This document shows positions 1,980 through 60,885 of a DNA stretch of 64,000 nt, piece by piece; position 1 is the stretch's first letter; each line of letters starts with the position of its first letter. The position numbers and the translations under genes were made by a program. The notes under the pieces were generated by a model. The model worked only from the letters and a program-made list of their open reading frames with translations. It did not search any database and was not told where the DNA came from. Origin of the DNA: Theodoxus fluviatilis (taxonomy: Eukaryota > Mollusca > Gastropoda > Cycloneritida > Neritidae). The DNA lies in assembly GCA_034096865.1 (NCBI GenBank), contig JAWQFJ010002855.1:32501-96500 (forward strand), in the 5' to 3' direction.

Positions 1980-2046
1980 ATGAGGATGCCCTGAAAACTT
2001 CCCCACCAACTGATTTTTATCCAGATTCTATAGCTGTAAATGAGTT

Positions 2047-2500
2047 AGTCTGTTTAATTTTTTGTCCATTCAGTCATTTTTTTAACATGTTATAAATTCG
2101 TCACGAAAACCCATAACAGCCCAGAAGGCATTTTGGTTACATTTATAACCAGAGACATTGGTCATGGATGTGAATCAGTTGTTATCTTTTTATGTTCTTT
2201 TTATGTTGTTGTATTTTATGTTGTTGTATTATGTTATGTTGTTTTTTATGATCTTGTTGTTGTTGTTGATTTTATCCATTAAACAGATTTTATGTTTAAC
2301 TCCATTAATAATCTGTTTCGTTTGTCTATTCAGTCATTTTAACCTGTTATAAATTTGTCATGACTGAAGAGCCATAATAGCCCAGGAAGGCATTTTTTGT
2401 ACAATAAAAACCAGAGGCATTGGTCGTGGGTGTGACTCAGTTGTTGTTTTTTATGTTGTTGTTGTTTTTATCCATTAAACTGGTTTTAAGTTTAACTCGC
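2047..2500 (+). repeat. Imperfect tandem duplication (about 260 bp and 190 bp copies)
   Basis: Copy 1 is about 2047-2310 and copy 2 about 2311-2500. Shared landmarks are cattcagtcattttt, cataacagcccagaaggc, ccagagacattggtc and ttttatccattaaac. TTG/TTA-rich and non-coding. Confidence 0.75.
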
Positions 2501-2552
2501 TTTTTTGTATCCAGTGCGCGCGCGCGTGTGTGTGCTATAAATGTGTGCGTTT

Positions 2553-2554
<2 letters not shown>

Positions 2555-2640
<86 letters not shown>
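2555..2640 (+). repeat. (GA)n microsatellite
   Basis: Uninterrupted GA dinucleotides over about 85 bp; ORFs across it are artefacts. Confidence 0.98.
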
Positions 2641-2646
<6 letters not shown>

Positions 2647-3040
2647 AAATTTGTATTTGCTACGCCAACGGTCCTTACAAAGCTTTCACGACCAAAAACA
2701 TCGTCAAAAGCGCAAAAGGGTTCTGGAGGGAACACACACAATACAGTTGTGCCACACACAAACACACGGACGCACGTACGCGCGCACACATATACAGAGA
2801 GAAAGAGGGGGGCGGAGAGTGCACGGTACATGCAAATCAGAACAGTTCCTTACACAAACAGTTGCTCTTTCTCCCGGTTGTCCTGATTGTGTGTATGTAA
2901 GTACGTGTACTTTCCACTTGTTATTCACAAACCTTTTCTTCTAACTAGGATATGTATCAAAACATTTAAACATTAAAACCCCCCAAATAAAAACAAAAAT
3001 GATATGAAAAAACTACTTTTATCAAGTAAAAGATGCGTGG

Positions 3041-3154
3041 CCGGATGTATGAAAGTCGATCCTCAATATTTTCATACATCCGGTTAACCGGATTTAGTAA
3101 AGACCGGATGTATGAAAGACAAAAATTGGGTCCCGACGACTTTCTTACATCCGG
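3041..3154. repeat. Four alternating copies of a 15-bp CCGGATGTATGAAAG motif
   Basis: CCGGATGTATGAAAG lies at 3041-3055 and 3104-3118 on plus, and its complement at 3071-3083 and 3140-3154, so neighbouring copies can pair into hairpins. The second copy is followed by GGTTAACCGG, itself palindromic. Probably a small foldback or MITE remnant next to a SINE-like copy. Confidence 0.7.
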
Positions 3155-3167
3155 TCTCGACTGTAAT

Positions 3168-3292
3168 CACTAGAACAGTTGAGAGTAAACGCAAATCAAG
3201 TCACGGTGTCCCTAGTTATTCGATCGCCTCTTACGAATCCCGCAGGGAGACGCGGTGGGTCAATTCTTACCCCTAACCCACAGGGTAAGATC
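3168..3292 (-). repeat. SINE-like interspersed repeat (gtaagaattgacccaccgcg family)
   Basis: The reverse complement carries the family's core: a GGGTAAGAATTGACCCAC-type segment, TACGAATCCC..GTAAGAGG, ataactagggacaccgtgac and ttgcgtttactctcaact. Other copies are at 7745-8075, 38985-39165, 45672-45776, 48130-48310, 53290-53475, 55284-55440, and one split at 57570-57655 plus 60886-60935. No RNA polymerase III boxes were recognised, so SINE is a working label. Confidence 0.75.
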
Positions 3293-3524
3293 TTGAAGAG
3301 CTAGGGTCTTTTTGCTGAATGACAAGTTGCTTGGAAAACTTCTTGGTAAATTTTAGGAATGTTTTGTTGCGCCATCTGCAATTAAGGTCACGCAAATTTG
3401 GGGTGTGGGGGTTGATTATTGAACATCAGAGTGTGTACAGCCCTGCATTATAGTGTACCATGGGGATACCTGTTGAACTCAAGTGCCATAAGACCAAAAT
3501 GAGCCGGCTATTAGCGCATAGCTG

Positions 3525-3573
3525 GGTAGTGCTAAAGTGCGGAATCCACCGGAATCCGCACTTTAGCACTACC
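3525..3573. repeat. Near-perfect hairpin, 23-bp arms, 3-nt loop
   Basis: TAGTGCTAAAGTGCGGAATCC at 3527-3547 is followed by acc and its exact complement at 3551-3571; two further base pairs extend the stem to 3525-3573. Confidence 0.85.
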
Positions 3574-3799
3574 GGTGCATAGCTCGATGTATCGTATGCC
3601 TCATATGCTTCCATTTATCTCAGGCCTTGGTGAAAAGAATTATTTGTGGAGTCAATGTACGGAATTTGAAAACTCGATCAGTGTTTACTTATACATCTCT
3701 TTCAAGAACTAGCTGCTTAATTAATCAGTTAATGCATTTAAAAGATTCTCTGAACATATCTTTCTAAGCATACACACCACATTCTGTCCATGTGTGTGC

Positions 3800-3803
3800 A
3801 CAA

Positions 3804-3835
<32 letters not shown>

Positions 3836-3880
3836 CATATGCATGTGTGTGTGTGTGTGTATGTGTGTGTGTGTGAGACA
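3800..3880 (+). repeat. (TG)n microsatellite with GCATA interruptions, then (GGCA)n
   Basis: Interrupted TG dinucleotides followed by caggcagacaggcaag-type tetranucleotides to about 3918. Confidence 0.9.
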
Positions 3881-3919
3881 GACAGGCAGACACAGGCAAG
3901 CAGGCAGGCAGGCAGATAA

Positions 3920-5730
3920 GACATATCCAACATTCCATCATAAATAAAATTAAGGAATATCGGTCTTGAACAATATTAGCAAATTTCAAACAAACTGTTG
4001 TATAAAAATTTATTGCTACATACAAAAATGCAATAAAAATGATCATATCATCTGCAAGGATTCTCTCCTGGAAAGTAATATATAAAAGAAGCATTTTCAA
4101 GGATAGTTCATACATGTGGAATGACTTTTCAGAGCTACAAGTGTTACATGTAAAATGCAAAAGTTCTCCATATACACAAATACATTCTTTCAACTCATTC
4201 AGCTGGAAAATGAGCACATTATGAGAGCTGATATCACAGAAATAACTTCCTGTGATATAATGTGGATTAATAACAGGTTTTAAGAGGTTAAAGTATGTAT
4301 TCTCTTTTCTTGACAATCTTTTCCACGAGTAAATCCACTTTTCTCCAACTGTTCTGATTACAAACATATTCAATGCATTAAAGTTACAATCAATTAAAGT
4401 TGTTACCTGTTAAAATTTCATAAATGTATTATTTATTCCAAAGCTGGAGAATGATATGCTTTAAAAAAACTTTTACTTTGCAGTTGAATTTTGTTTCCCA
4501 ATTCTTTAATGATTTCTGTAATATACAATCAAGTGTTAATTTAAGAAATAATGAATCCTGGCCAATCTCCATCTTTTCTTTAACATGTAGCTAAATATAT
4601 TTAGGTAATATCACACGTTGAAATCAAAGCCTGCTAACAATGAACTATGCAAAATTGTAATTCACTTATGAACTTTTGAAAGTATCATTTCACTGTCTTG
4701 TGGTCTTTGTCCTCATCAAGTCAATCATGTTACTACTAGTGCCACAATTCTGCAGTTAGCACACATTCAATGAAATGAAATCAGTCTATTGTCCATTCAA
4801 ATGAAGGCTTAGGACTACTGATTAATTTAAATGTCATTCTATTCTGTTCATTTATCATCTAACCTTGGCTTTATTTACAGCTACAGAGCATTTTTTGAAG
4901 GTATATTTACAAAATGTACACTTTTCTCAGTCCATTTTATACAAAAGCATGTTAACAGCATAATCATATAATATGACAATTTTCCCATTTTACTTACAAC
5001 AATTACAGTATAAAAATTTGCCCCAAAACCCTGAAAAAAATTGTTTGTGATTTTCTATCTCTAGTTATGGATGAACTTCTCAATATCAATGCCTCTGTCC
5101 CATTAAACAAATTGCTGAAGGCACAGTTGCATTCATGGATGGTAGCTCTGATAGCATGCAATATGACACTGACATGGTAGGCAATATTCTTCACCCAGAT
5201 TGGATTTTTAAAATGTCTTATGCACATGCATGACATGACTGCTAAATAAGTAGGGAATGTAACAAGATACTTATTTTTGTCACATCTTGGAAATGTTCAG
5301 TAAAACAAAGCAAGGATGCAAGGAATAGAATTTGAGAGCTGTAGTTTAAGTTGTACTCTCCACATTGAAATGGTTTCATGAAGCCTTAGAGCACTGGGGG
5401 GAAAAAACAAACAAACCAATTCTTCTCTTGTAAAAATATTTACTCTCATCAGATCATTATGGGTCATGTAGGTTCCTATCAATATGGCATCATCCAAGCT
5501 CTACCCATCCTTCTTCCTGGAAGCCGAAGGGAAAACCCTTTCAGAAATCAGATTATTATGTCGTTATATTTTCAAAGAAGCCATTCATTAAACCATAACT
5601 GCTGCCCCTTGGAATACAGCAGTTGTCTACTTGTCTTCCGGTGGTACTTTACGATGCATCTCTACAGTCCAAAGCCAGGGCCAGATGTTGACTTCAGTTC
5701 ACATCTCTGAAGATGAAGCCTGTAATCTTC
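3920..5730. other. AT-rich stretch without a recognisable gene
   Basis: No conserved ORF, splice-flanked exon or TIR element seen. Its position just downstream (in the minus direction) of the Ly6-type gene means part of it may be that gene's 3' UTR. Confidence 0.5.
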
Positions 5731-12074: not shown

Positions 12075-12559
12075 GTCTTGGATATGTTAAAACTATCAAA
12101 CTAATTTCATTTAAGGAAGCAAGAGTCTGCAGATAAAAATCAAACATTTGACAAGAAACTTTTTTCCCATTTTATTTTTCAAATACAGAAAGCAATTAGG
12201 AATGGCATTCGCTGGCATGACATACATGCATTTCACTGTCTTCTGATAGAGGTAACATACAACGAGCCGTATGTGATTTGTATATTAGCTGTGTCAAGTA
12301 TCTAAATAATCGCGCTTTTGTCAATCAATACACGGGAATTCTGATTATGATGCACATCTTCCAAGAAGCATTTGCCCTGGAGTACTCTCCTGAGGCCTAC
12401 TGGTCAAAACAGAAATTCTTACCTCTGGGCACACAGCCATCTCAGGACACTGAATCCCAGGGGGTTGCTGATGGGGAAGGAGAGGGGAAAACAGTTAATC
12501 CAGAGTGTGTACACTAAGAGGACAAGTGAGGACAAGTACTCTCTTACATACTGCCATGC

Positions 12560-13292
12560 CTTTTCCTCTCTCTGGATCACCTTCATCACCAACTCAGACG
12601 AATCCAAACACATTGCCGAAATTGACCTTCTCGCCAAGTGGTGCAGCGACAATCGTCTTGATCTCAATGTCAAGAAAACTAAAGAACTTATCATCGACTT
12701 CAGGAAAGCTCATACCCATGTTCCTGTACACGTCAGCGATGAAAAAGTCGAGCAGGTCAAGGAATTTCGTTACCTTGGTATCACCATCGACAACCGTCTC
12801 ACCTGGACCACCTATATGACCTGTGTCTTGCGCAAAGTCCATCAGTGCCTCAACCTTCTTCGGAAACTCAACTGCTTTGGTGTCGAGAAGGAAGCCCTTC
12901 GTACTTTCTATAGAGCTGTGGTGGAAAGCTGCATGGCGTTCGGTGCGTATGGGTGGTCGGCGGTGCGACACAAGAAGACAAAGACTCAACAGAGTCTGTC
13001 GTAGTGCCGTAGTGCCGTTCGCATCGTCGGCTGACCCTTGCTGACCGTCGAGGAATTAGGCAGTGCCAAGATCAGGAAGAACGCAGCTGGCATCCTGAAA
13101 GATATCTCTCATCCCCTCCACCAGCTGTTCGAGACACTACCCTCAGGACGTCGACTTCGTGCAGCCCGAGCGAGAACAACACGCATGACAAACTCTTTTG
13201 TTCCAACTGCTATAACGTTGCTTAATCTGGAGAAGGTGCTACCAAATAGAAATAAAAAAACAAGAAATGAGAAGGAAAAGGAACTGATGTAG
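12560..13292 (+). pseudogene. Non-LTR retrotransposon reverse transcriptase, 3' fragment
   Basis: The frame of 12372-13004 reads DLLAKWCSDNRLDLNVKKTK, FRYLGITIDNRLTW and LNLLRKLNCFGV, the post-catalytic thumb region of CR1/L2/Rex-like LINE reverse transcriptases. A frame change near 13005-13040 leads into 13038-13292, with HPLHQLFETLPSGRRLR and MTNSFVPTAITLLN, the usual C-terminus of these proteins. The YADD catalytic motif is missing, so the copy is 5'-truncated as typical for LINEs. Flanking A-rich sequence follows the stop. Not functional. Confidence 0.8.
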
Positions 13293-19035: not shown

Positions 19036-21030
19036 GGATGCTTCAATCCATAAGTATCACCAAATCATAGGCAAGAAGCTCAGCTGTCACATGAACAATA
19101 CTCAACCCTCAGTTCCACCAAATCATAGGCAAGAAGCTCAGCTGTCACATGAACAATACTCAACCCTCAGTTCCACCAAATCATAGGCAAGAAGCTCAGC
19201 TGTCACATGAACAATACTCAACCCTCAGTTCCACCAAATCATAGGCAAGAAGCTCAGCTGTCACATGAACAATACTCAACCCTCAGTTCCACCAAATCAT
19301 AAGCAAGCAGCTTAGCAGTCACATGAACAATACTCAACCCTCAGTTCCACCAAATCATAAGCAAGCAGCTTAGTAGTCACATGAACAATACTCAACCCTC
19401 AGTTCCACCAAATCATAGGCAAGCAGCTTAGCAGTCACATGAACAATACTCAACCCTCAGTTCCACCAAATCATAAGCAAGCAGCTTAGCAGTCACATGA
19501 ACAATACTCAACCCTCAGTTCCACCAAATCAAAAGCAAGCAGCTTAGCAGTCACATGAACAATACTCAACCCTCAGTTCCACCAAATCATAAGCAAGCAG
19601 CTTAGTAGTCACATGAACAATACTCAACCCTCAGTTCCACCAAATCAGAAGCAAGCAGCTTAGTAGTCACATGAACAATACTCAACCCTCAGTTCCACCA
19701 AATCAGAAGCAAGCAGCTTAGTAGTCACATGAACAATACTCAACCCTCAGTTCCACCAAATCAGAAACAAGCAGCTTAGCAGTCACATGAACAATACTCA
19801 ACCCTCAGTTCCACCAAATCATAAGCAAGCAGTTTAGCAGTCACATGAACAATACTCAACCCTCAGTTCCACCAAATCAGAAACAAGCAGCTTAGCAGAT
19901 ACATGAACAATACTCAACCCTCAGTTCCACCAAATCATAGGCAAGCAGCTTAGTAGTCACATGAACAATACTCAACCCTCAGTTCCACCAAATCATAAGC
20001 AAGCAGTTTAGTAGTCACATGAACAATACTCAACCAGACCTGCCAACCCACCACCATGCCAAAGAGTAGCATCCAGAGCTATTTGGAGTAGCATGGAAGG
20101 AACAGGCGTAGCGGGGGTGGGGGGGTGAGGGGTTGGGAGAGATAAAGCTGTGATAAGCTGACCCGGTGGCGTGAAAGCGGGGGGGGGGGGGGGGGGGGGG
20201 GGGGGGAGATAAGGCTGTGAAGGCGGCGAGATAAGCTGCACTGGCGGCGTGAAAGGGGGGGGGGGGGGGGGATTCTCCATCGCGGTCAAAAGTTCAAGCA
20301 GGCAGGGAAAGCGTAGTTTTTATGAAAAAGCGTAGCAGCGTAGCAAGCATGTCGAAAGCGTAGTATGCTACGCCTAAAGCGTAGCATTTGGCAGGTCTGC
20401 TCAACCCTCAGTTCCACCAAATCATAGGCAAGAAGCTCAGCTGTCACATGAACAATACTCAACCCTCAGTTCCACCAAATCATAGGCAAGCAGCTTAGTA
20501 GTCACATGAACAATACTCAACCCTCAGTTCCACTAAATCATAGGCACGCAGCTTAGCAGACACATGAATAATACTCAACCCTCAGTTCCACCAAATCATA
20601 GGCAAGCAGCTTAGTAGTCACATGAACAATACTCAACCCTCAGTTCCACCAAATCAGAAACAAGCAGCTTAGCAGACACATGAACAATACTCAACCCTCA
20701 GTTCCACCAAATCAGAAACAAGCAGTTTAGCAGTCACATGAACAATACTCAACCCTCAGTTCCACCAAATCATAGGCAAGCAGCTTAGTAGTCACATGAA
20801 CAATACTCAACCCTCAGTTCCACCAAATCATAGGCAAGAAGCTCAGCTGTCACATGAACAATACTCAACCCTCAGTTCCACCAAATCATAGGCAAGCAGC
20901 TTAGTAGTCACATGAACAATACTCAACCCTCAGTTCCACCAAATCATAGGCAAGCAGTTTATCACTAGCAGACACATGAAGTTGAACAATACTTAACCCT
21001 CAGTTCCACCAAATCATAGGCATATACAAC
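19036..21030 (+). repeat. 58-bp satellite array, about 28 copies
   Basis: The unit contains gaacaatactcaaccctcag, ttccaccaaatcat and caagcagcttag..gtcacat; starts at 19093 and 19151 give the 58-bp period. Two subtypes exist: gaagctcagctgtcacat and cagcttagYagtcacat. A MITE splits the array at 20035-20399. No unique spacers, so not CRISPR-like. Confidence 0.95.
20035..20399. mobile_element. CAGACCTG-ended MITE with 6-bp TSD (CTCAAC) inside the satellite
   Basis: Ends CAGACCTGCCAA and TTGGCAGGTCTG. The satellite sequence CTCAAC is duplicated at 20029-20034 and 20400-20405. The interior has repeated gcgtagc motifs and two long poly-G tracts. Related elements: 25875-26039, 33338-34402, 34674-34971. 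Confidence 0.85.
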
Positions 21031-26039: not shown

Positions 26040-27937
26040 TTGTTGCTGAGCGCCTCCGCACGGGCGAGTCGACAGCCCAGATCTGTGCAGTTTGCGTGTT
26101 AGCAAAATGCAGATCAAGCAAGTCGGGACATGCTGGATGAGCATGGCAATGTTGAGCTCAAGGCAGGATAAGGAAGGAAGCGGGAGAAGAGAACAGAAGA
26201 GGTGGCTGTGACTGTGAAGGCTTTGGTTGAACTTCGTCATCGGCAGTCCACCAGGAAGCTGGCAAAGCAGTTTGGCATGCATGAGCGCACCATGCATCAC
26301 GTGATCAGAGATGACCTGCACATGAAGTCTAGGGCAGTGGTCACCAAAAACAGGATCACGGAGGTGCAGAAGATCACGAGAGTAGACCATGCCAGGAAGA
26401 TTCTGAACTGGATGAAGAAGCCAGAAAATGCCAAGAAGGTGTGCATTTTCTCTGATGAAAAGCGGTTCTGTGTGGATTCAGTTCTGAATTGTCACAACTC
26501 CAGATGCATATCGGCTGAGAGAGAGGAGGATGTGCGCAGCCCAGCAACCAAGAATCCTCGGGAGGTCATGATGCTGGGGGTCATCAGCAGTGATGGGAAA
26601 ACATGCCCCCCCGATCTTCATCAACAGCAGCGAGAGGATCAATGCGGAGCACTACTGCCAGCTGCAGAGTGAACATGTGATTCCCTGGGTCAAGGCCACG
26701 TACAAGGACACCTTTGTGTTCCAGCAGAATGGCGCAGCTGCTTATACTAGGTACTGGCAGCCGCAGCCAGTTTTGCTGGGAAAGGTGCCTGCAGGCTAAA
26801 AATTGATGATTTACCCCGTGATGTTTATATATTTAAATTGAAAATTTTCGCACCAAAACTATGTGCAAAATAAAGTTTCAACCTTCATCTGTCGTTCTGT
26901 GTTGTTTTTTTATGTTGTCTGTGATCTGTGGTACTTGTGCGAATGCACTAAAAGTACTAGATGAAACACAAAATACGCTTCGCGTCATCAGTCTGAATGG
27001 CGTCTTTCACCAAGCATATTTACAGTGTGTTAGAAACATTACCTTTCGCGCCGTCAAGAAACCCATTCCAAGTATGCGAATTACTGAGTCAGCAAGACGA
27101 AGCTCCACAGTTTATTCTCGTATAAATATTTTTCCAAAATAAAGCGATTAAGTTAAAGAAAATTCTATCTGAAAATATGTCTAATTTTCAAAAGCTCATA
27201 TCTCTGGAACTACTCAACGGATTATATACAATAAAGATGGAAATTAAAGCTCATTTTATGCCGAATTTAACGATATATGAAACGTGTCGGACAAATGAAT
27301 GCTCGCGCAGCGCGAGCCAAACGGAGACGAGTACTCTCCGCGCACTGGTAGTGGAACGCATCATGGCGGACTACGCATCTACGAGCGGTTGTGGCAAATC
27401 GGAGTTATTTGTTTGCAGCATCAAGTCTAGTCTTGATAAGTAGCCTAATTCGATGTCTAAACTCATTAAGTTACCAGTACTGCAAGTTATTAAAGCTATT
27501 TTTTGCTATTCATGGCAAAGTTTACGCAGAATTAACAGCAAATGTTTGCCACGTGACCGGGTCAAAGTTGTGTGTTGTGTATATGTGCATTCGAAGTGTA
27601 GGCCTATCGTATTTTTCTTTCTGCTGATTGTTATCATCAAAATATTATGACAGGAATGTCTGTATGTTATAAACAACATAAATAAGTGTTTTGTTGAATT
27701 TTAGCAGGGTGTTCGAAAACAAAAATCGATGTCTATCATAGACCGAAGTGCGATCCCATATCGAATAGTCATGTGTTTGGATGTATACACACACGTGCCA
27801 ATAACATCTGATTCTCATCTCTGAGGTACGCAGCCAAACTGCTGACATGTTAAAAAAATATTAATGACCTTTTATAGAAATGCAATGCTATTTTATTTTT
27901 CTGTTTTATTTTAGACTATGCACAATTCCAGCGTCCG

Positions 27938-35777: not shown

Positions 35778-52380
<16,603 letters not shown>

Positions 52381-57569: not shown

Positions 57570-57655
57570 CCCCACCCAAATCCTGTACAATTCGTAGGTG
57601 AAGAATTGGGGAACTTATGGCTTGACTTAATGGCTTGTCTTGCCCTTACTCTAAC
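57570..57655 (+). repeat. SINE-like copy, 5' part, interrupted by the palindromic element
   Basis: cccaaatc..caattcgtaggtgaa..gcccttactctaac; continues at 60886 after the inserted element. Confidence 0.7.
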
Positions 57656-58099
57656 CAAAGACCGTCTACAATAAGATGGTTCATCCGGCACTCGGCCTAT
57701 ATAAAACATGATGACGGCGCCGACCGTGGCGCCCCAAGCGGAAACGGTGTCCCTCGAGTCCAGGAAGACAACTTCCACATACCGCGTCAGCATAACAATT
57801 TACAGTGGATCGTGGAATCCTCTTATTGTGAACTTCAATTGAGGGACAGGAAAAAATGTTCACACTAAGCGGAATGTCACATTAAGAGGGTTGATTTCAG
57901 TCATACGATGAACTGAAGGGAAATTAAAAGGTTGTGGCTATTTCAGACACTGACTATACTCTATAGAGCGAGCGCACTGCTTAATATTACATTACTCGTT
58001 CGTCGTACCTCGAGCTTTTTCTGAACTCATCTTGAACAATTTTTATGCGAGATTTTAAATCAGACAAACATGAAAACCTTACTCCAACTAACTTTCAAA

Positions 58100-58170
58100 G
58101 GCAAGGAGGTGACCATTGCAGTGCGAATAACTGTGTTAACTCGCGCTATGCCTGTCCACAGAAGTCGTAG
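58100..58170 (+). pseudogene. Decayed duplicate of the THAP codons, left arm
   Basis: About 70 bp repeat of the exon 114 bp upstream of it: GDHCSANNCVNSRYACPQKS followed by TAG. Mirror copy at about 60376-60446 on minus. Confidence 0.7.
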
Positions 58171-58190
58171 TCGTGATTAGCCGGTCAAAA

Positions 58191-58315
58191 ATGTCGACCA
58201 CGAAGAAGAAATCAAGGCAAGGAGGTGTCCATTGCAGTGCGATTAACTGTGTTAACTCGCGCTATGCCTGTCCACAGAAGTCGTTTTTTAGTTTTCCGTG
58301 GAAAAATAAAGAGAG
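58191..58315 (+). CDS. THAP-domain first exon, left arm
   Basis: ATG at 58191; encodes MSTTKKKSRQGG, then HCSAINCVNSRYACPQKS and FFSFPWKNKER, the N-terminal half of a THAP zinc finger (first two Cys and the SFF.FP core). Ends AGAG at donor GTAAGT, phase 2. The His/Cys pair and AVPTIF-type end would be in a later exon, which is absent. A truncated gene remnant carried by the foldback element. Confidence 0.75.
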
Positions 58316-59111
58316 GTAAGTAATGATTATATAAATGTGTTTTGAGCTAAGCGCAATAAAATACAGAACTTGAAGTGTAATCTAAATCTGCTGAACTGGT
58401 TGAGGAAGCTTGTGGCTTTTGCTTTTGTAGGTGTGCCGATATTTGTTTTCGAAAATCTGCTGATTTAGTCACGTCAGCACCTCAGCAAATCAGCAGTCTT
58501 GATAATGAATGATTCACGTTACATGATAAATATCGCCTTGAGGCTTGATCACAATTGAGTGATTCTGAATCAGAGTTGAAGAGTTTTGGCAACTCTTGCC
58601 TTGGTCATCTCTTGAAAAAATATTTGTTCATACGCTGATGTTGTAATGCATGAAAACAGAATTCATTCAGTGTGAGTGTAACTAGCATTTTCCTTTATCT
58701 TGATAGGATTTTTTTTCAGCTCGTGGTTGGGTTTTTTTCCATTGTGCTTATTGGTTGTTGATGGGGGGAACTTCAATTACTTCAACAGAAACTAAATTCC
58801 AGTAAACTGTTCAACAAATGCACTTTTGCTGATTTATTCTGGTTCATAACACATCCAAAATAAATTCTATGGCCAAGAACAATCCACAAACAGACTTGAA
58901 AGGAATACTTACATACAAAATCTTCCAATTAATATTATATTACATACAAGAATACTTAAGTTAATGATTTTCTTATCATGAAAGCAAGGCAAATCAAGTC
59001 AGCATCTTCATAACTGGCAAGTAAATGGCTCACATGATACAGTTGCTCCATACATAAAAGAAGACTATTAGTTCTTTGCACAATCTTTCTATAAATGCCT
59101 TAGCTTAATGC

Positions 59112-59434
59112 TATGAGAATTTGTGATTCTTAACTTCAAGTTATACAGAGCTTTGAAATATCACAGTGACACACACATGGGCAGATCATGCCCTGCTATT
59201 GAATATAAATGAGTGTTTTTGAAGTTGCTGAAGTTTGAAAAAAAAGGTGAAAGCACTGATGATTTGTTTTTATTAATGACATTAATGTACTTGGGTAACT
59301 TCTAGTCTGTATTATTTTCTTCTCCGGATTGCATAGTTCACAGCAATTTCCTCAATCTTTGTTTCATGATCATGGTAATGGAAATTTTTTTAATGATCGG
59401 TCAGTGATTACCTACACCACCAGACATGCAGAGG
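59112..59434. other. Unique centre (spacer) of the palindrome
   Basis: 323 bp, AT-rich, no ORF; not inverted. Confidence 0.8.
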
Positions 59435-60230
59435 GCATTAAGCTAAGGCATTTATAGAAAGATTGTGCAAAGAACTAATAGTCTTCTTTTATGTATGGAG
59501 CAACTGTATCATGTGAGCCATTTACTTGCCAGTTATGAAGATGCTGACTTGATTTGCCTTGCTTTCATGATAAGAAAATCATTAACTTAAGTATTCTTGT
59601 ATGTAATATAATATTAATTGGAAGATTTTGTATGTAAGTATTCCTTTCAAGTCTGTTTGTGGATTGTTCTTGGCCATAGAATTTATTTTGGATGTGTTAT
59701 GAACCAGAATAAATCAGCAAAAGTGCATTTGTTGAACAGTTTACTGGAATTTAGTTTCTGTTGAAGTAATTGAAGTTCCCCCCATCAACAACCAATAAGC
59801 ACAATGGAAAAAAACCCAACCACGAGCTGAAAAAAAATCCTATCAAGATAAAGGAAAATGCTAGTTACACTCACACTGAATGAATTCTATTTTCATGCAT
59901 TACAACATCAGCATATGAACAAATATTTTTTCAAGAGATGACCAAGGCAAGAGTTGCCAAAACTCTTCAACTCTGATTCAGAATCACTCAATTGTGATCA
60001 AGCCTCAAGGCGATATTTATCATGTAACGTGAATCATTCATTATCAAGACTGCTGATTTGCTGAGGTGCTGACGTGACTAAATCAGCAGATTTTCGAAAA
60101 CAAATATCGGCACACCTACAAAAGCAAAAGCCACAAGCTTCCTCAACCAGTTCAGCAGATTTAGATTACACTTCAAGTTCTGTATTTTATTGCGCTTAGC
60201 TCAAAACACATTTATATAATCATTACTTAC

Positions 60231-60355
60231 CTCTCTTTATTTTTCCACGGAAAACTAAAAAACGACTTCTGTGGACAGGCATAGCGCGAGTTAACACAGT
60301 TAATCGCACTGCAATGGACACCTCCTTGCCTTGATTTCTTCTTCGTGGTCGACAT
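60231..60355 (-). CDS. THAP-domain first exon, right arm (mirror copy)
   Basis: Exact mirror of 58191-58315, including ATG and GTAAGT donor; both would be transcribed towards the centre. Confidence 0.75.
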
Positions 60356-60375
60356 TTTTGACCGGCTAATCACGA

Positions 60376-60446
60376 CTACGACTTCTGTGGACAGGCATAG
60401 CGCGAGTTAACACAGTTATTCGCACTGCAATGGTCACCTCCTTGCC
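60376..60446 (-). pseudogene. Decayed duplicate of the THAP codons, right arm
   Basis: Mirror of 58100-58170 with the same substitutions, so the duplication predates arm duplication or was spread by conversion. Confidence 0.7.
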
Positions 60447-60885
60447 TTTGAAAGTTAGTTGGAGTAAGGGTTTCATGTTTGTCTGATTTAAAATCTCGCA
60501 TAAAAATTGTTCAAGATGAGTTCAGAAAAAGCTCGAGGTACGACGAACGAGTAATGTAATATTAAGCAGTGCGCTCGCTCTATAGAGTATAGTCAGTGTC
60601 TGAAATAGCCACAACCTTTTAATTTCCCTTCAGTTCATCGTATGACTGAAATCAACCCTCTTAATGTGACATTCCGCTTAGTGTGAACATTTTTTCCTGT
60701 CCCTCAATTGAAGTTCACAATAAGAGGATTCCACGATCCACTGTAAATTGTTATGCTGACGCGGTATGTGGAAGTTGTCTTCCTTGACTCGAGCGTCACC
60801 GTTTCCGCTTGGTGGCGCGCGTGACCCTAATTTCGCCGGAAGTGACCGGATGAACCATCTTATTGTAGACGGTCTTTGCTCTAAC

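Follow-up and report, generated by a model that had tools for sequence, protein, structure and literature searches.

A palindromic foldback element with mirrored half-THAP exons in Theodoxus fluviatilis, probably a Galileo-like form of a P-type transposon

How does a transposable element come to be a near-complete palindrome, and why does it carry the same exon twice? The locus that raises this question is a palindromic element of 3,223 bp at positions 57656-60878 of a 64,000-nucleotide stretch of Theodoxus fluviatilis DNA (the window, to which all coordinates without a locus name refer). Its two exon copies both have an open frame and are oriented towards each other. Our answer is that it probably belongs to the P superfamily, as a cut-and-paste transposon that is itself non-autonomous, with a Galileo-like foldback structure and with a P-type transposase, supplied in trans, to mobilise it. 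This agrees with the initial annotation in deriving a foldback form with two convergent THAP exons from a P-like element, a derivation supported by the match of the exon to THAP, the 7-bp duplications, the foldback arms and a distinct right end.

Architecture of the element and its relatives

In Table 1, we report the features of the element. The perfect terminal inverted repeats (TIRs), the CTCTAAC duplication and the inverted arms of about 1.45 kb that had been described at this locus are all there. The arms including the tips measure 1,456 and 1,444 bp with 98.0% identity. The gapless arms within them, 99.6% alike by BLAST and listed as 100% complementary in another comparison, are separated by 323 bp, the length given before for the centre. 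We use the left 1,783 bp of the window element as a ruler for all copies. The right arm meets the centre at GCAT (59435-59438), and the edge of the centre near ruler 1783 recurs at several junction types. The innermost left-arm sequence is present in both arms of two other copies, L011 and L027. What had been called a decayed duplicate of the exon is a partial copy (97%), which lies upstream of the exon in each arm.

Table 1. Coordinates of the element in the window
Feature	Position	Strand	Basis
Target-site duplication, left copy CTCTAAC (7 bp)	57649-57655	.	sequence reading
Left TIR, 33 bp, begins CAAAGACCG	57656-57688	+	perfect match to right TIR
L-type subterminal sequence, left end only, 45 bp	57689-57733	+	comparison of ends
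Shared motif CCAAGCGG, position 79 of left end; gapless arm starts here	57734-57741	+	
Left arm, gapless inverted repeat, 1,378 bp	57734-59111	+	
71-bp partial duplicate of THAP exon	58098-58168	+	self-comparison
THAP first exon, 41 codons + 2 bases, GTAAGT donor after	58191-58315	+	similarity to P transposase
Innermost left-arm sequence, ruler 1457-1519; no mirror copy in the right arm	59112-59174	+	
Centre, single copy in the element, ruler 1520-1783	59175-59438	+	
Right arm, copy of the left arm in inverse orientation, 1,378 bp	59435-60812	-	
Mirror THAP exon, identical, GTAAGT donor after	60231-60355	-	sequence comparison
71-bp partial duplicate of THAP exon, mirror copy	60378-60448	-	self-comparison
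Shared motif CCAAGCGG, position 67 of right end	60805-60812	-	
R-type subterminal sequence, right end only, 33 bp	60813-60845	-	comparison of ends
Right TIR, 33 bp	60846-60878	-	perfect match to left TIR
Target-site duplication, right copy CTCTAAC	60879-60885	.	sequence reading

The first 20 bp of the tip, allowing up to 3 mismatches, match twice in the window where 0.02 matches are expected. Between 57656 and 60878, Tandem Repeats Finder (score 100) lists no tandem array. Elsewhere the window has large arrays at 39569-40432, 45774-47909 and 19058-20961, with units of 32, 49/102 and 58 bp respectively, and at 26172-26672 and 12351-13004 it has frames that by eye resemble fragments of a Tc1/mariner-type transposase and of a LINE reverse transcriptase. 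A host SINE-like copy that rejoins when the element is removed, as the initial annotation had it, was not found by searching the joined flanks in the window and in the genome. Joined flanks of 400 + 400 bp have no other match in the window. Against the genome, joined flanks of 170 + 170 bp match nothing besides the two halves themselves and one further place, over 47 bp of the right flank, in a search that skips very common words and that a very abundant repeat could escape.

The element belongs to a family with a few hundred relatives in the same genome. In the 965 Mb searched (19,668 contigs), the 24-bp tip with at most 2 mismatches is found at 567 places (287 + 280), and its reversed control at none (0 + 0). 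The sequences that we read are the window and 26 fetched stretches, 27 in all, and most of the fetched ones are the best 40 scored of 720 left-end candidates, so that the sample is biased to copies like that of the window. A complete pair of tips is present in 23 of them; the stretches without one are L019, L022, L023 and L059. Perfect 7-bp duplications flank 20 of the 23 complete copies, as compared to 0.8 for shuffled pairings, and 8-bp duplications flank none. The exceptions are L012, with one mismatch, and L018 and L027, which have no duplication. The same tips with the same length of duplication are thus present at other loci, as had been anticipated. Across 18 complete copies, the arms are between about 113 and about 1,530 bp long.

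Different ends, a shared motif and the probable copying of arms

Two types of tip, L and R, are combined in 21 of the 23 complete copies, the remaining two being L009 (L/L) and L018 (R/R). Past the TIR of an R end come 33 bp of R-specific sequence and then CCAAGCGG. This motif sits at position 67 in 24 of 25 R ends and at position 79 in 22 of 25 L ends, an offset of 12 bp. After it, left-arm sequence follows in 23 of 25 R ends. The R ends with other sequence at this point belong to L063 and L064, which are short (340 and 280 bp). In L063 the motif is followed by 26 bp resembling left positions 512-537 (92%), a stretch that L064 does not have, and L063 may itself be rearranged. Because R ends keep their own sequence as far as the motif and then run into left-arm sequence, we read the right arm as 66 bp of right end grafted at CCAAGCGG onto an inverted left half. 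The best reading of the two ends is that they were originally different, and we propose CCAAGCGG as a putative template-switch and transposase-binding site.

The palindrome could also have arisen by the fold-back of one broken left half, or by the joining of two left halves. The microhomology found at the joins (see below) is in keeping with such an origin, and so is one copy, L009 (G000:C993, 2080-3655), a palindrome of ruler 1-811 that ends in an L tip on both sides and is flanked by a perfect CTTGGGG duplication, which may have been made by this different route, fold-back or dimer. But a left half that snaps back would not yield an R tip, and the R tip is kept up to CCAAGCGG in 21 of the 23 complete copies, which makes this origin unlikely for the family. 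A separate case is L018 (G000:C14733, element at 2043-4634), which has R tips at both ends, lacks a target duplication and looks like the outcome of ectopic recombination between two copies; such products are reported at inversion breakpoints for Galileo.

The ruler also locates the joins. For 17 of 20 elements, ruler pieces, plus and then minus, account for everything but the R-specific tip and gaps of a few bases. The elements that do not resolve in this way are L060 (X, described below, and 63 bp more), L017 (about 875 extra bp) and L059, whose left tip falls outside the fetched stretch. Several joins recur: 1783|1456 in the window, L014 and L017, and mirrored in L016; 1783|1524 in L011, L027 and L060, with related joins in L012 and L013; and 1777|1272 in L010, L024, L025, L026 and L059. 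The joins 1783|1033 and 1782|846 are those of L015 and L018, and L009, L020, L021 and L028 have others. Six of the eight joins that we read have microhomology of 2-7 bp; another has two extra bases, and in the last the join is hidden by N. We had considered ruler 1783 as the end of the parental 5' half, and dropped this when L060 showed that 1783 is the edge of the single-copy centre.

The family also includes non-palindromic copies. In one arm of L060, L061 and L062, where the palindromes have the second exon and intron, there is instead an interior sequence of up to 727 bp that we call X. It spans 727 bp at L062:467-1193, with no long open frame, and is interrupted in L061. The exon and intron are in both arms of the palindromes and in one arm of L060 and L062. 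The X-bearing class is apparently the commoner class of the family; a genome search with X gives 309 first-look candidates, of which 40 were scored, all at 99-100%. L061 (G000:C605, 408-4950, about 4.5 kb) is a family copy nested in another copy, with duplication TCACAAT; it is interrupted by foreign DNA and contains a frame that looks Harbinger-like by eye. The simplest order of the forms, which we favour as plausible and not as proven, would lead from short ends to arms of about 445 bp to full palindromes; the reverse order is possible.

Variants within elements bear on what happens to arms once they exist. A 7-bp insertion is present in both arms of the window element and in none of the 42 other arms where the site was found. 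Across 46 arms, at sites covered by at least 12 arms, 16 alleles occur exactly twice. In 11 of these cases (10 events, as two form one indel) the two occurrences are in both arms of one element, and in the other 5 they are in two elements; random pairing would place about 1 in 45 in the same element. The window and L017 have the 1783|1456 join in common and private paired variants in each, which suggests that copying between arms went on after the join had formed. Arms of one element therefore seem to copy each other. Homogenisation would be partial, because differences within elements are only somewhat below those between elements (means of 1.7 and 3.4 within versus 3.5 and 4.9 between, in two regions) and because few partner arms are nearest to each other: strictly so in the window element alone, 1 of 11 elements in each of the two regions. 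For four elements (L013, L024, L025 and L026) the nearest arm clearly belongs to another element, and in the last three of these the two arms of the element differ more from each other than from arms elsewhere.

In the reading that we favour, these forms come from a repair cycle. After excision, the repair strand of the right end would anneal to the left end at CCAAGCGG, perhaps a site bound by the transposase. Synthesis would then run inwards over the left half, taking in THAP exon 1, and the copied strand would be end-joined to the centre. Repeated rounds would lengthen, shorten and homogenise the arms.

The mirrored exons

The exon has a counterpart in a P-type transposase of the same genome, L030. 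The exon peptide is identical to the THAP of L030 at 18 of 31 residues (E 2e-11). L030 in turn is similar to the P transposase of solved structure, 6p5a (E 8e-39), and its domains are THAP, HTH, RNase H and GTP-binding. Likeness to the exon is seen in 7 of 120 listed relatives, with P0037 the best, and the best named relatives of the P transposase are from the snail Batillaria. The peptide includes CxxxxC and FxFP, which we take to be THAP-domain motifs. With the 41-residue half domain alone, Pfam and PDB searches gave nothing useful (Pfam made no call), and a protein search with the exon gave no match. In the genome, a THAP family search has 2,305 first-look candidates; 150 were scored, and all listed ones are above the curated cut-off.

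By these comparisons, the exon reads as coding for a P-transposase-type THAP domain, first half only. The earlier description of a THAP first exon in each arm is correct as to the exon, its open frame and its GTAAGT donor, and has to be narrowed to the N-terminal half of the domain. The other half of the finger would sit in a later exon, absent from the element. The peptide alone should not form a DNA-binding finger, because the exon ends halfway through THAP and has one C..C pair only.

Do the mirrored exons have a function of their own? A peptide consisting of THAP only could be made from them and block the ends, or the arms could give a hairpin or convergent transcript feeding small-RNA silencing of the P-type family. 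Of 43 arm copies of the exon, 32 retain the start codon, the frame and the donor; the exon has somewhat fewer substitutions per aligned base (0.006) than the sequence outside it (0.010); and long arms would be expected to fold if transcribed. But 7 of the 43 copies are frame-broken (in L024, L025, L026, L028, L061, twice, and L062) and 4 could not be parsed, the exon covers only half of THAP, and it has no fewer variable sites than its surroundings: 10 in its 125 bp against a mean of 8.1 in arm stretches of the same size, of which 71% have 10 or fewer. These counts give no clear sign of extra constraint on the exon relative to the arm around it. The peptide repressor suggested in the initial annotation is thus unsupported, as the exon stops halfway through THAP and has no clear extra conservation, and we consider a function of either kind very improbable. 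In our preferred account of arm copying, the exon would be a passenger, carried because it sits in the 5' half that is copied, with no product needed. The family seems to be young, and intact exons would reflect that youth. Finally, that the palindrome is a foldback artefact of assembly is hardly credible: inverted repeats are a general risk in a gapped assembly, and several loci do contain N runs, but many loci have the structure with different flanks, 7-bp duplications and arm depths, the centre is single-copy, and L and R tips differ.

The presumed mobilising transposase and comparison with known systems

The family would be mobilised in trans by a P-type transposase, and the search for this partner was negative in the places covered. 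P-type RNase H matches number 111 in the genome. When 30 P-transposase loci were scanned with up to 1.5 kb on either side, no tip was seen at 5 edits or fewer, nor was one in the sequence flanking two transposase families on the 3' side (311 and 701 bp). Comparison by eye of the listed tips (100 of 567, and 32 of 32 in a second listing) with all 111 of these matches shows no more than two contigs in common, C839 and C1251, where tip and RNase H lie about 300 kb and about 84 kb apart. A full-length relative with THAP and transposase inside these tips, for which the initial annotation had proposed a search, is not among the 30 P-transposase loci, the scored THAP and X candidates (150 of 2,305 and 40 of 309), the two 3' flanks, the C605 copy or the listed tips. 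An autonomous parent could lie at one of the tip places beyond those listed, be missing from the assembly, or not exist in this genome.

The features that link the element to the P superfamily are the half THAP domain of P-transposase type and the 7-bp duplications; the element itself carries the half-THAP exon only. Kolobok elements are also THAP-bearing transposons, with a TTAA target duplication, whereas the duplications here are 7 bp long and varied. Drosophila Foldback (FB) has arms made of short tandem repeats, unlike the window element, in which no tandem array was found; FB and Tetris have the foldback architecture in common with it. The Drosophila P element has an N-terminal THAP and TIRs of similar length. 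Between its TIR and the one here we find a weak likeness, equalled in 186 of 5,000 shuffles. Ordinary deletion derivatives of the P element are not known to be palindromic.

Deletion derivatives as such are a point of likeness to the P element. A further possible one is the position of the subterminal sites: according to PMC3688188, the P-element THAP sites are at 53-63 and 41-51 of the two ends, the same 12-bp offset as that of CCAAGCGG at 79 and 67 here, where binding is putative. The P element differs in its duplications, given as 8 bp in PMC10983969, versus 7 bp here. The same paper describes zebrafish Pdre2 / THAP9, likewise a P-type element outside flies, with TIRs of 13 bp versus 33 bp and duplications of 8 bp versus 7 bp (PMC10983969).

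The origin of the long arms of foldback transposons has mostly been argued from end states. This family seems to hold intermediates: short forms with their own right-end sequence, forms with arms of about 445 bp and a unique interior, and near-full palindromes. The proposed switch can be placed at one shared motif of 8 bp, and the variants within elements point to copying from arm to arm. In the literature searched we came across no earlier description of a P-type element that is palindromic and has its THAP exons mirrored, which is not proof that there is none. The closest comparison is Galileo, a P-superfamily transposon of Drosophila which has foldback-like long TIRs and duplications of 7 or 8 bp, and many non-autonomous copies consisting of two TIRs (PMC3573991; PMC4168063). 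There, the TIRs grow by recruiting internal sequence, pieces of the transposase ORF included, and the authors proposed that one TIR is repaired from the other (PMC3573991; PMC4168063). The likeness comprises the foldback architecture, long variable arms, 7-bp duplications and the recruitment of internal sequence, with the direction of change here being our reading. The differences are that the recruited piece here is the 5' THAP exon with its intron, that the arms start at a short subterminal motif and that they gave no tandem array; the comparison is one of architecture. By this analogy, the family appears to work like Galileo and is not assigned as Galileo. More tentatively, and with the balance of probability still against it, a self-reinforcing repair cycle at the binding motif of the transposase might both make and maintain foldback P elements. 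It might keep the 5' half, with the THAP exon, preserved and homogenised in the absence of selection on any product, and might have acted on separate occasions in flies and in an animal outside the flies. If our main reading of the family is right, arm growth of the Galileo type would be a general behaviour of P-type elements.
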